From: an uncultured Bacteroidota bacterium | Lineage (GTDB): Bacteria > Bacteroidota > Bacteroidia > Flavobacteriales > Flavobacteriaceae | Length of the DNA stretch: 64,000 nucleotides | Direction: 5' to 3' | Assembly: GCA_902587325.1 (NCBI GenBank) | Contig: CACIKV010000005.1 | Coordinates: 1-64,000 of the forward strand | Notes under the pieces: model-generated | What the model was told of the DNA's origin: nothing | The model's input: only the letters and a program-made list of their open reading frames with translations | Database searches by the model: none | Shown: positions 60,893-64,000 of the stretch, piece by piece | Layout of the letters: each line of letters begins with the position of its first letter | Position numbering within the stretch: position 1 is the stretch's first letter | Made by a program: the position numbers and the translations under genes

Positions 60893-61066
60893 TTAAGTTT
60901 TTATGAAAAACTTATAATAAATTAAAAAACCAATCAGAGCTACTAATACGTATGGAATAGCCATTAAATAAACTATACCATCATTTAAACTTTCGGCAAC
61001 TTTTTGATCTGCCCCTGACTCAAGAACAGCTTTACACATTGAACATTGAAAAATAGTATACATCAT
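60893..61066 (-). CDS. Small membrane protein with a C-x-x-C motif
   Basis: The start chosen is the ATG at 61066, which overlaps the DUF420 stop (ATGATG with TGA inside); a longer frame from 61126 would run through the DUF420 gene. The 57-residue protein has C-S-M-C at about residues 8-11 and one C-terminal helix with a basic end (Y-Y-K-F-F-I-K-T). It has the feel of a short oxidase-assembly or metal-handling protein found behind DUF420 in flavobacteria. The function is unknown. Confidence 0.75.
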   Translation of the reverse strand: MMYTIFQCSMCKAVLESGADQKVAESLNDGIVYLMAIPYVLVALIGFLIYYKFFIKT

Positions 61067-61653
61067 GCGTAATAAGGTGAAATCATTAGATAAACAACAA
61101 CTCCAGTTGTAGCTACATACAACCAAATTGGAAAAGTAATTTTAGCAATTTTTTTATGTAAAATAAATTTTGACTTAATAGCCCGCGAATAGCTAATTAA
61201 AACCAAAGGAATAACGACTATTGAAAGTAAGATATGAGTAATTAAAATAAAAAAATATAAATATGATATTAATCCAGTGCCACCAAATGAGGTTGGATCA
61301 GTAGTGAGGTGGTATGCAATATACATAACCAAAAATGACAATGATAAAGCAATACAAACTTTTATCAAACTTTCATGAATTTTTCTCTTTCCATTTTTAA
61401 TATAATAAACTGCAAGAACTAATAATATTGCAGTTAATCCATTAATTGTCGCATAAATCGGTGGAAGAAAAGTTAAAGGCTTAGCAATTGGCAGATTCTC
61501 CAATAAAATAATTGGATCAGAATTTGGAATTCTCATATCAAAGACTAATTGATCATAATCCCATTTCATAAAAAGTAATAGTGCAACAACAATAGGAACA
61601 AGGACTGAAACAACCCATATCAAAATATCATAAATAATTTTGCTCCTATCCAT
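61063..61653 (-). CDS. DUF420 membrane protein
   Basis: This 196-residue protein has about five helices with His residues in the membrane (for example H-E-S-L-I-K, A-Y-H-L-T-T, T-H-I-L-L-S and H-K-K-I-A-K), which fits DUF420, a family linked to haem-copper oxidase assembly. It overlaps the SCO gene by eight bases and the small C-x-x-C gene by four. A role in cytochrome oxidase maturation is inferred from position. Confidence 0.88.
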   Translation of the reverse strand: MDRSKIIYDILIWVVSVLVPIVVALLLFMKWDYDQLVFDMRIPNSDPIILLENLPIAKPLTFLPPIYATINGLTAILLVLAVYYIKNGKRKIHESLIKVCIALSLSFLVMYIAYHLTTDPTSFGGTGLISYLYFFILITHILLSIVVIPLVLISYSRAIKSKFILHKKIAKITFPIWLYVATTGVVVYLMISPYYA

Positions 61654-62350
61654 TTTCGAGCAATTTAATAATGTCCTCTTTAATCATATCTATTCCCTGC
61701 TTACCATCTCCAGAGGTTATACCTAAATAATAAACTATTGGATTACCATTTGAGTCTCTTCTAGATCGAATGTATCCGTTTTTATCAATTAAAGCAAAAT
61801 ACCCTTGGTGTTCAAAACCACCAGCAACGGCCGGATTTACACCCGCAAAAATATTAAACCCACTATTTGATAGTTCATAAACATCATCAATTTTACCAGT
61901 CAAAAAGTGCCAATTCAGAGATTTAACATTCAATCTTTCAGAGTATTCTTTCAATACCTTAGGAGTGTCAGTAATTGGATCAATTGTAAACGAAGCAATA
62001 CCAAAATCTTCACGATTTCCAAATTCCTCATCCAGAATTTTCATGTTTTGATTCATCTCTATGCAAATATTAGGACATGAGGTGAAAAAAAATTCAGCTA
62101 CATATACTTTCCCTGTAAAATCCTCATTAGATATATATCTATTGTCTTGATTTAAGAATATAAAATCTGGAACTTTTCTAGATTCACCATTTAACTTAAC
62201 AAAAGACAATTTAGATGATTGAGTTATTTTCTCAGTTCGATTTGATTCAATAATTTTATCAGATTTAATTCTATTATTTATTCTCGGAATAAACCATACT
62301 GCAAAAATTAAAACTATAATTACTAATGGGATGTACTTTTTATTTTTCAT
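61646..62350 (-). CDS. SCO-family copper chaperone/thiol protein
   Basis: This 234-residue protein has one N-terminal helix and a thioredoxin fold with F-F-F-T-S-C-P-N-I-C (Cys92, Cys96) and His181 in F-E-H-Q-G-Y-F. This is the complete copper-binding set of SCO proteins, which metallate the CuA site of cytochrome c oxidase subunit II. It overlaps the SCO-like paralogue by 11 bases and DUF420 by eight. Confidence 0.94.
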   Translation of the reverse strand: MKNKKYIPLVIIVLIFAVWFIPRINNRIKSDKIIESNRTEKITQSSKLSFVKLNGESRKVPDFIFLNQDNRYISNEDFTGKVYVAEFFFTSCPNICIEMNQNMKILDEEFGNREDFGIASFTIDPITDTPKVLKEYSERLNVKSLNWHFLTGKIDDVYELSNSGFNIFAGVNPAVAGGFEHQGYFALIDKNGYIRSRRDSNGNPIVYYLGITSGDGKQGIDMIKEDIIKLLENG

Positions 62351-62969
62351 TAAAAATATTATTCTTTTTAAGAGCTAATCTATATTCTGCCAAAATTATT
62401 TTTACATCATCAAGCATGTTATTATTTATATCTGCTACTGACCTAGAATCGTATCCAAATTTTATGCCATCAGAATCGTCTCTTCCTCTCAAAGACGAAT
62501 CCTTGTCAATTATAAAAGCAAAAGGAGATCCTAAATATTCATCCAATTCTAAACTTGTATCTAAGCTTTTAAATACAGAAATTATTTCATCATTTGATAA
62601 ATGAATAAAGCTCCAGTTTTTCATATCAGTATTTGTTCCTGATGATAACTTTTCTCTCAGCAAACTTGATTTTTTTTCATTACCAATTGGTGAAATAGAA
62701 ATAAATTGAAAATCTTTAAATTGATAAAATCGCTTATATATTTTTTGATTCAAATTTAGAGCATCTCCTTCACGTAAATCAATCTCACTACCAATAAAAA
62801 AGAGGATTGTAATTTTATTATTAAAAGGTTGATTTATAAGACTCTCTAAATTTTTAATATTGTTTGTTAACACAGGTAATTTTGCAAAATTATTTATACC
62901 AGACGCAAAAAAAAGATATGCAACCAGCGGAAGTACAAATAGAACGATAAGGACTAAGTACTTTTTCAA
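62340..62969 (-). CDS. Cysteine-less SCO-like membrane-anchored protein
   Basis: This 209-residue protein has an N-terminal helix and a thioredoxin-like body without any cysteine. Its C-terminal half lines up by eye with the neighbouring SCO protein: F-I-I-D-K-D-S-S-L-R-G-R-D-D-S-D-G against A-L-I-D-K-N-G-Y-I-R-S-R-R-D-S-N-G, followed in both by an aromatic-Gly segment and a final helix. It therefore looks like a diverged SCO paralogue that has lost the copper ligands. It may help oxidase assembly without binding copper. Confidence 0.72.
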   Translation of the reverse strand: MKKYLVLIVLFVLPLVAYLFFASGINNFAKLPVLTNNIKNLESLINQPFNNKITILFFIGSEIDLREGDALNLNQKIYKRFYQFKDFQFISISPIGNEKKSSLLREKLSSGTNTDMKNWSFIHLSNDEIISVFKSLDTSLELDEYLGSPFAFIIDKDSSLRGRDDSDGIKFGYDSRSVADINNNMLDDVKIILAEYRLALKKNNIFNEK

Positions 62970-62981
62970 TAAAAAACAAAA

Positions 62982-63365
62982 TTAAAAATTCCAACTAACA
63001 AAGCCTTCGAAAAAAACATCGTAAATATAATTACCCTCAACTAAAAGAATAAATGCTAAATAAGCAATTAAAAAAATAAGTGAAATAACAACTGATGCTT
63101 GTAACCCAAATGTTTCATCTCGCATGTGCATAAAATCCCACGTTATATAATATGCTTTAACAATTGTTAATATTAGAAATATCCAATTAATTAACTTTAA
63201 GCTGAGAAAAGATGACATTAAAATTTCAGGCTTAACAATTCCCAATGCAACTTCAATTGCAGTCACAATTGACAGAAAGATTAAAACTCCCCAAATCTTT
63301 TGAACATTAGATTTAAATTTAATTAAACCTCTAAAAATTTCTAATTTGTGCGTGTGTTGTCCCAT
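62982..63365 (-). CDS. Cytochrome c oxidase subunit IV-like protein
   Basis: This 127-residue protein has three membrane helices and the family segment Y-Y-I-T-W-D-F-M-H-M-R-D-E between the second and third, as in COX4_pro_2 proteins. It is an accessory subunit of the haem-copper oxidase. It starts three bases after the subunit III stop. Confidence 0.9.
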   Translation of the reverse strand: MGQHTHKLEIFRGLIKFKSNVQKIWGVLIFLSIVTAIEVALGIVKPEILMSSFLSLKLINWIFLILTIVKAYYITWDFMHMRDETFGLQASVVISLIFLIAYLAFILLVEGNYIYDVFFEGFVSWNF

Positions 63366-63368
63366 AAA

Positions 63369-64000
63369 TTAAACCAAATAGAAAAATGTAAATACAAAAA
63401 CCCAAACTAAATCAACAAAGTGCCAATACAAACCTACTTTTTCAACCATTTCATAATGACCTCTTTTTTCATAAGTACCAATTAAAACATTTAAAAAAAT
63501 AATAATATTTATAACAACACCAGAAAAAACGTGAAAACCATGAAAACCAGTTATGAAGAAGAAAAAATCTGCAAATAATCTATTACCATACTCATTTCTT
63601 ATCAGGTTAGCACCTTCAACTACATAAACAGCTTGTGATACTTTTTCAATTGACTCTTCTCGAGACAAAATTATTTTTTTACCACTATCATCAAGCTTTT
63701 GAGATCTTACTAATAAATTGGAGTTAGCTAAAAAACCCTGATAAACCTCATCAAGAGTGAAATTAGGTAATGATGATTCATCTCTAAACCACAAACCATT
63801 ACTTCTTTGATGCTGTTGTCTTTCCTGAGGAATGAATTCAGCAAAATCTTTTAAGGCAATTCTTTTATTAGAGTTATTGCTATCTACAAACTGTATTATT
63901 TGACCCCCTTTTGTTTCAAGAGCGCCATATTCACCTCTTATGAAATTTGCCCATTCCCATGCTTGAGAACCTACAAAAACAGCCCCACCAACAATAGTTA
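63369..64000 (-). CDS. Cytochrome c oxidase subunit III, 5' end outside the window
   Basis: The frame is open from the window edge (last complete codon at 63998) to the stop at 63369, giving 209 visible residues. It shows F-V-G-S-Q-A-W-E-W, F-H-G-F-H-V-F-S-G and Y-W-H-F-V-D-L-V-W, the conserved subunit III segments. Between the helices there is a hydrophilic insert of roughly 110 residues (about 63600-63930) rich in charged residues, longer than in proteobacterial subunit III. It is an inner-membrane part of the terminal oxidase. Confidence 0.92.
   Translation of the reverse strand, partial: TIVGGAVFVGSQAWEWANFIRGEYGALETKGGQIIQFVDSNNSNKRIALKDFAEFIPQERQQHQRSNGLWFRDESSLPNFTLDEVYQGFLANSNLLVRSQKLDDSGKKIILSREESIEKVSQAVYVVEGANLIRNEYGNRLFADFFFFITGFHGFHVFSGVVINIIIFLNVLIGTYEKRGHYEMVEKVGLYWHFVDLVWVFVFTFFYLV

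Follow-up and report, generated by a model that had tools for sequence, protein, structure and literature searches.

What can a SCO-like protein do at an oxidase once the copper ligands of SCO are gone? The question is raised by an ORF in the window, that is, the whole stretch of 64,000 nucleotides from an uncultured member of the Flavobacteriaceae that was analysed here. The ORF (62340-62969, minus strand) encodes a protein of 209 aa with a TTG start, named SCOX here. A sequence-only reading had suggested that it may partner with SCO as a scaffold in CuA assembly, or have a new function at the oxidase.

Sco proteins are reported to act on subunit II of the oxidase by reducing its cysteines or by loading copper, and this varies among organisms (PMC6696091, PMC9145763). 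In Arabidopsis, HCC2 is a SCO paralogue that lacks the copper motif and exists beside a canonical SCO; other higher plants are described as having such a pair (PMC3971200). A ligand-less paralogue is, therefore, known already, and the suggestion of a new function was too strong as stated. What is new is that such a paralogue occurs in bacteria, operon-linked and across a family, that it goes with one oxidase, and that 35 of 59 members lack any cysteine. A literature search, with most subscription journals outside it, found no title or abstract that describes the gene. A copper survey of one genome, that of Bizionia argentinensis, names only SCO proteins keeping CxxxC in its accessible part (PMC11213822). 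With SCOX, a large bacterial family gains an oxidase-linked gene that seems to have gone unrecognised. The features that the argument needs are as follows.

63369..63998, minus strand: cytochrome c oxidase subunit III (PF00510, E 2.6e-9); runs past the window end, 326 aa in full
62982..63365, minus strand: cytochrome c oxidase subunit IV (COX4_pro; PF03626, E 1.3e-13)
62340..62969, minus strand: SCOX, Cys-less SCO paralogue (ORF, 209 aa, TTG start)
62904..62963, minus strand: predicted N-terminal hydrophobic (membrane) helix of SCOX, residues 3-22 (helix 2-21 of the 208-aa model)
62751..62792, minus strand: SCOX segment in place of the SCO CxxxC site, residues 60-73, G...NL (from the ligand-column alignments)
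62481..62489, minus strand: invariant RGR of SCOX, residues 161-163, C-terminal SCO-like pattern (identical in 59/59)
62346..62438, minus strand: long conserved C-terminal helix of SCOX, residues 178-208 (helix 177-207 of the 208-aa model)
62340..62350, minus strand: overlap of the SCOX end and the SCO start, 11 bp (from ORF coordinates)
61646..62350, minus strand: canonical SCO (CPNIC, His; PF02630, E 3.9e-25)
61063..61653, minus strand: CtaM-type (DUF420) oxidase maturation protein (PF04238, E 5.2e-42)
60893..61066, minus strand: small membrane protein with a CSMC motif at the cluster end; ORF listed from a TTG at 61126, start at 61066 estimated

The gene, its neighbours and its fold

The genes are arranged in the order COX3, COX3, COX4, SCOX, SCO, CtaM-type DUF420 and a small CxMC membrane protein. 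Ahead of the COX3 genes, beyond the window end, lies a protein that we take to be heme O synthase, CtaB. The neighbour of SCOX is a true SCO (PF02630, 88.8 bits, with CPNIC), and the overlap of the two genes that had been read from the sequence was confirmed at 11 bp, with the SCO ORF at 61646-62350 on the minus strand. Such an overlap is not universal in the family. It was seen in 28 of 58 pairs, while 45 of the 58 overlap or lie at most 20 bp apart and the widest gap is 141 bp, all of these spacings resting on estimated start codons. A role in oxidase maturation is described for DUF420/CtaM (PMC13344008, PMC9145763). In Bacillus subtilis, CtaM is reported to be required for aa3 and caa3 activity, and it has been proposed that CtaM exports copper, which Sco then binds (PMC9145763, PMC13344008).

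The start of SCOX is nearly fixed, because the open frame has just 213 aa between stops; the position of its TTG is occupied by Met in most aligned relatives. The protein contains no cysteine and a single histidine, and consists of an N-terminal hydrophobic helix followed by a soluble domain. This helix is the only N-terminal hydrophobic one in the structure model, whose numbering is one lower than that of the protein since the model covers 208 aa without the first residue. The same was observed by eye in the alignment of 59 homologues, where one sequence (L048) starts at a contig end. The helix is thus predicted to be a single membrane anchor, as in SCO/SenC. SCOX is single-copy in its own genome, the second row of the search being weak (E 0.086) and interrupted by stops.

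In a single BLASTP comparison, SCOX and the neighbouring SCO share 29% identity over 108 aa (E 5e-4). The SCO-type C-terminal pattern, which was pointed out from the sequence, is found within this alignment as IDK...LRGRDDSDG in SCOX and IDK...IRSRRDSNG in SCO. When the profile of 59 SCOX homologues was compared with that of 57 SCO neighbours, the match reached E 2.2e-10 over 199 columns, and it remained at E 1e-9 over 151 columns with the N-terminal helix cut off. The profiles of unrelated neighbouring families reached probabilities of 0.2% (DUF420), 0.1% (COX4) and 2.8% (COX3) against SCOX. In the SCOX-SCO profile alignment, SCOX is about six residues shorter in the SCO loop region. In four family genomes (G061, G107, G146, G172), the second match of a whole-genome search with the SCOX profile is the frame just downstream, in the place of SCO. 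The likeness is above chance and, by these sequence comparisons, SCOX is a SCO homologue.

The curated models do not reach this far. The window protein falls under every Pfam and NCBIfam cut-off and has no PF02630 match even at E up to 10, and PF02630 is absent among the matches listed for the 59 homologues (25 of 32 families). Weak matches to Redoxin, Thioredoxin_8 and AhpC-TSA occur in 3 to 5 of the 59 members (best E 0.0013). The two PF02630 genes of the window's own genome (1.48 Mb, 84.8% complete) are the SCO neighbour and one on another contig; neither is SCOX. SCOX shares with SCO/SenC (PF02630; BsSco 1xzo, human SCO1 2ggt, yeast Sco1 2b7k) the N-terminal anchor, the thioredoxin fold, the C-terminal pattern and the oxidase cluster. 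However, it lacks CxxxC, in 58 of 59 members it also lacks the ligand His, and the window protein has no match to the family model. On the criteria of ligands and model, SCOX is not filed in SCO/SenC.

An AlphaFold model built on 68 sequences (pLDDT 83.1, pTM 0.73) suggests a SCO-type thioredoxin fold. Its best solved matches by VIA-align are 4hde (Z 14.6; 2.7 Å over 150 residues) and 1xzo_A (Z 13.6; 2.8 Å over 150), and both are SCO proteins. They are followed by human GPX8 (Z 12.5) and human SCO1 (11.8), with peroxiredoxins and ResA-type proteins at Z 10.5 to 11.5. In Foldseek, 4hde and 1xzo again supply the chains of the first three rows, with a best E of 3.5e-5, though the TM-scores are only 0.46 to 0.59. 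The SCO-like fold proposed for the protein was thus upheld, since SCO proteins and not some unrelated fold head the matches of the predicted model. Solved chains gave only chance matches by sequence.

Another thioredoxin-fold enzyme was rejected as GPX, peroxiredoxin and ResA score under the best SCO entries, though some of these folds tie with human and yeast SCO1 against the SCOX model. A thiol enzyme of the GPX, peroxiredoxin or TlpA-ResA kind needs a catalytic cysteine, and the window protein has none.

Loss of the copper site in a conserved family

The missing copper ligands, first noticed in one protein, turned out to be a family-wide trait. In the ligand columns of SCOX, Cys occurs at either position in 0 of 59 sequences and His in one (L023). 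The same columns hold C, C, H in all 58 family SCO proteins, i.e., 57 cluster partners and the second SCO of the window's own genome. A C...C motif was found in none of the 59 aligned SCOX sequences and in none of 80 public loci. One duplicate row (L002, of L003) was left out, as was the truncated L038 from the SCO sets. The further claim that the protein is free of cysteine holds for the window protein but is not a rule of the family, as 24 of the 59 homologues have one cysteine. From the alignments, the conserved trait of the SCOX family is the absence of copper ligands rather than zero cysteine, and the CxxxC and distal His that mark SCO/SenC are lacking from its aligned members apart from that single His.

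The commonest His and Cys columns of SCOX reach 28/59 and 18/59, so neither residue is conserved; Met 185, kept in 56 of 59, is the one conserved Met. Across 59 sequences from 59 genera, seven residues are invariant (P14, L31, G60, R161-G162-R163 and D188 in protein numbering). Mean pairwise identity in SCOX falls from 0.51 in the N-terminal helix (residues 4-23) to 0.42 in the Trx core and rises again to 0.50 in the C-terminal part, while in SCO the respective values are 0.59, 0.60 and 0.54. The most conserved part of SCO is the core; that of SCOX is the membrane helix and the C-terminal helix. Constraint is, therefore, partly gone from the core of SCOX and kept in the anchor and the last helix.

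SCOX is found in 59 of the 60 family genomes of a first set and in 289 of 298 of a larger one, which comprises the window's own genome (84.8% complete) and 297 others drawn at 95% or more completeness. Two of the 289 (G457, G588) are included by weak matches, although their ORFs score somewhat higher with the SCO model than with the SCOX model; in both, a CxxxC-less SCO-like ORF follows COX4, and a small protein and then a CPTIC SCO come after it. In the public loci, COX4 lies to the left of SCOX in 80 of 80. On its right, 79 loci have SCO and the remaining one a contig end; the SCO partner carries CPxIC in all 79 readable loci, so that the survey bears out the conservation of the pair. In the 60-genome set, the SCO profile is found in the same 59 genomes that bear SCOX. 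In one of 59 loci (G016), about 1.5 kb separates COX4 from SCOX and SCO is on another contig; SCOX is kept despite this rearrangement. A local artefact or an error in a metagenome-assembled genome is ruled out by the 289 of 298 genomes and by isolates such as Zobellia uliginosa DSM 2061.

By a counting method, SCOX dN/dS is about 0.11 between the window and its three nearest relatives, with synonymous sites near saturation, and 0.05-0.06 among those three. The values for SCO are similar, about 0.06-0.07 in the three pairs available. SCOX is under purifying selection.

A separate observation concerns the genus g319 (L245 6196-6930, L246 1491-2195). Here, the gene after COX4 is SCO-like but strongly diverged and without CxxxC, and the small CxMC protein sits between it and the true SCO.

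Tie to the aa3-type oxidase and the likely role

The subunits I and II are encoded elsewhere in the genome, apart from the COX3-COX4-SCOX cluster, and the CuA motif of the genome's own COX2 is intact (CAKICGSSHYNM). COX2 was found in 70 of 70 SCOX-positive genomes tested, and the same COX2 type in none of nine SCOX-negative ones; these nine span five genera, and G023 is counted once. In the 60-genome set, PF00116 finds COX2 in 57 genomes, 55 of them over the cut-off. It misses COX2 in G002 and G025 and places G024 and G053 below the cut-off, while the window genome's own COX2 as query finds all four, including two of the three genomes without a PF00116 match. In the third, G023, a search for COX2, SCO and SCOX found none of them. 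The remaining eleven positives were hand-picked from the second set, nine at will and two for their weak SCOX matches, and all have COX2 at E 5e-69 or better.

In seven of the nine SCOX-negative genomes, the searches gave no COX2 match. The other two (G422, G499) give a weak match only, to the short COX2 of another oxidase whose operon has SCO and is without SCOX. G513 keeps a strong SCO match, with COX2 and SCOX not found by the same searches; SCOX, therefore, tracks the oxidase more closely than SCO does.

The own-genome oxidase genes are thus divided between two places. The genes beside COX2 and COX1 are presumably those of an alternative complex III, ActC to ActF, and these complex III-like genes run straight into COX2 and COX1 (L223 75-6599, contig C8). 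It was also observed that a heme-copper oxidase operon of another kind is present in two family members that lack SCOX (L248, L249); it includes a short COX2 (CAEICGIGHANM) and a SCO, and a DUF420 gene lies nearby.

For a ligand-less SCO fold that shares the gene row and is missing where the oxidase is missing, binding without chemistry is the simplest explanation. We propose that SCOX is a pseudo-SCO which works for the aa3-type oxidase alone. Alongside SCO and CtaM, it would help to assemble COX2/CuA as a scaffold in the membrane, free of metal; we hold this to be just on the probable side. SCOX would have lost the copper and redox site and kept the N-terminal anchor and the SCO-type thioredoxin fold, so as to serve one machine, the aa3-type cytochrome c oxidase. 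Anchored in the membrane, with the domain facing the periplasm, it would bind the nascent oxidase (apo-COX2) and/or SCO itself through surfaces common to SCO. In this manner, it may hold COX2 or the COX2-SCO pair while SCO fills the CuA site; CtaM perhaps supplies SCO with copper, and SCOX itself would carry no metal. The mechanism is the part that we infer here; homology, ligand loss, place, selection and co-occurrence come from the data above. Several points weigh against such a scaffold. SCOX and SCO are parted in the one rearranged locus; the same cluster in other Bacteroidota families contains a single canonical SCO but lacks SCOX, which makes the role a non-universal one; and the negative side of the co-occurrence consists of nine genomes from five genera. 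Moreover, HCC2, the nearest precedent, is reported as unneeded for oxidase activity (PMC3971200), which is normal in its knock-outs (PMC6307045).

The conservation of the anchor and C-terminal helix would equally suit the main rival, an accessory subunit that stays permanently in the aa3 oxidase or in the supercomplex of this oxidase with complex III, the SCO fold now being structural. The tie to the oxidase, closer than that of SCO, the gene order COX3-COX4-SCOX and the helices outranking the Trx core, where SCO has its highest conservation, all speak for a subunit. Yet SCOX stands with the assembly genes SCO and CtaM and overlaps SCO in about half of the pairs, and we regard a subunit as rather unlikely. 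No solved chain matches SCOX by sequence beyond chance, which carries little weight because, to our knowledge, the aa3 part of the supercomplex has no resolved structure. It is improbable that SCOX, as an inactive paralogue, forms dimers with SCO and so controls how active or stable SCO is, leaving the oxidase untouched. The genes are indeed adjacent and often overlapping, and human SCO2 is reported to act on SCO1 (PMC3971200, PMC6307045), but SCO2 works through cysteines that SCOX does not have, and SCO also occurs where SCOX is missing, both in other families and, together with another oxidase, in G422 and G499. Human SCO2 and yeast Sco2 resemble SCOX as a second SCO beside a first, though both are described as keeping the cysteines and the copper site (PMC6307045). 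A redox or oxidative-stress role apart from oxidase building, as proposed for HCC2, seems more improbable still. HCC2, without the copper motif, does partly rescue the stress phenotype of a yeast that has neither Sco2 nor Sod1 (PMC6307045), but no cysteine means no thiol chemistry, and SCOX is absent where the aa3-type oxidase is absent. Finally, a decaying pseudogene might be suspected as the known active-site residues are all gone; with 289 of 298 genomes, dN/dS of about 0.05-0.11 and seven invariant residues in 59 sequences, its likelihood is negligible, and it is rejected on dN/dS and conservation.

Going by the sequences, SCOX fits the HCC2-type definition of a paralogue without the copper motif plus a canonical SCO in the same genome. 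However, HCC2 is reported to keep other cysteines, and hidden copper binding is stated to be one thing that could not be excluded there (PMC6307045), whereas most SCOX members have none; and in contrast to HCC2, which oxidase activity does not need, SCOX is operon-linked and co-occurs with the oxidase gene, a link that speaks for a role at the oxidase although it has not the force of a knock-out. A review called it 'very surprising' that HCC2, lacking the cysteines and copper-binding features, could complement the lack of another SCO, and left its function for research to find (PMC6696091). The assembly factors CtaM (DUF420) and CtaK/PCuAC belong to the same pathway, and a CtaM-type gene is part of the SCOX cluster, but the DUF420 profile gave no sign of a sequence relation with SCOX.

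Tentatively, the Flavobacteriaceae may build CuA with an obligate pair of a metal-carrying and a metal-free SCO, the metal-free half being needed for the oxidase; we consider this possible, if somewhat doubtful. If true, the SCO fold has a second, copper-independent job, i.e., oxidase binding or holding, which has been split onto a gene of its own, and the same principle would explain the puzzling HCC2 of plants. SCOX makes a SCO role apart from copper and thiols testable in bacteria with deletion genetics, which exist for complex III in Flavobacterium johnsoniae (PMC8552683).

Ligand-less genes beyond the family and the small CxMC protein

Beyond the family, the SCOX profile matches in 73 of 119 genomes of the order and 65 of 198 of the class, and many of these matches are canonical SCO. 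In 80 loci chosen among them (L143-L222), a single canonical SCO fills the slot after COX4 in most cases, and 73 of 79 SCO-type rows have C, C, H. One of the six exceptions (L213) has CDDTC, its His being absent through the alignment only. SCOX followed by SCO was seen in six of the 80 loci (L143, L144, L177, L178, L182, L216) and SCOX followed by CtaM in one (L207).

The other five exceptions are SCO-like oxidase-cluster genes with broken ligands in two other Bacteroidota families, f29 (L198, L201, L208) and f36 (L200, L220). As in SCOX, the ligand set is broken, and four of the five come directly after COX4; unlike SCOX, each is the single gene in the slot and nests among canonical SCO. Another PF02630 gene, located elsewhere, is present in four of the five genomes and has CxxxC in G189 and G232; G268 shows the broken gene alone. 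A quick tree built from 101 rows groups family SCOX in a single clade (SH-aLRT 99) to which two other families attach (98), and it places the f29/f36 genes, all five, inside canonical SCO. This suggests a separate origin for them. An AU test did not reject a single clade of all ligand-less genes (p 0.43). A branch with SH-aLRT 96 has all genes labelled SCOX on the same side, a grouping that may be attraction because several of them are long branches. Given the nesting and the AU result, the repeated loss of the copper site in the slot after COX4 is only a lead.

The small membrane protein at the cluster end (60893-61126, minus strand) falls under all Pfam and NCBIfam cut-offs. All 53 aligned family rows have CAMC or CSMC as the CxMC motif; in other families, C-x-x-C is kept in 60 of 60 rows and CxMC in 59 of 60. 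Judged by this motif, it may be a partner of CtaM and SCO that binds metal or acts through thiols, and is perhaps chemically more interesting than SCOX itself.
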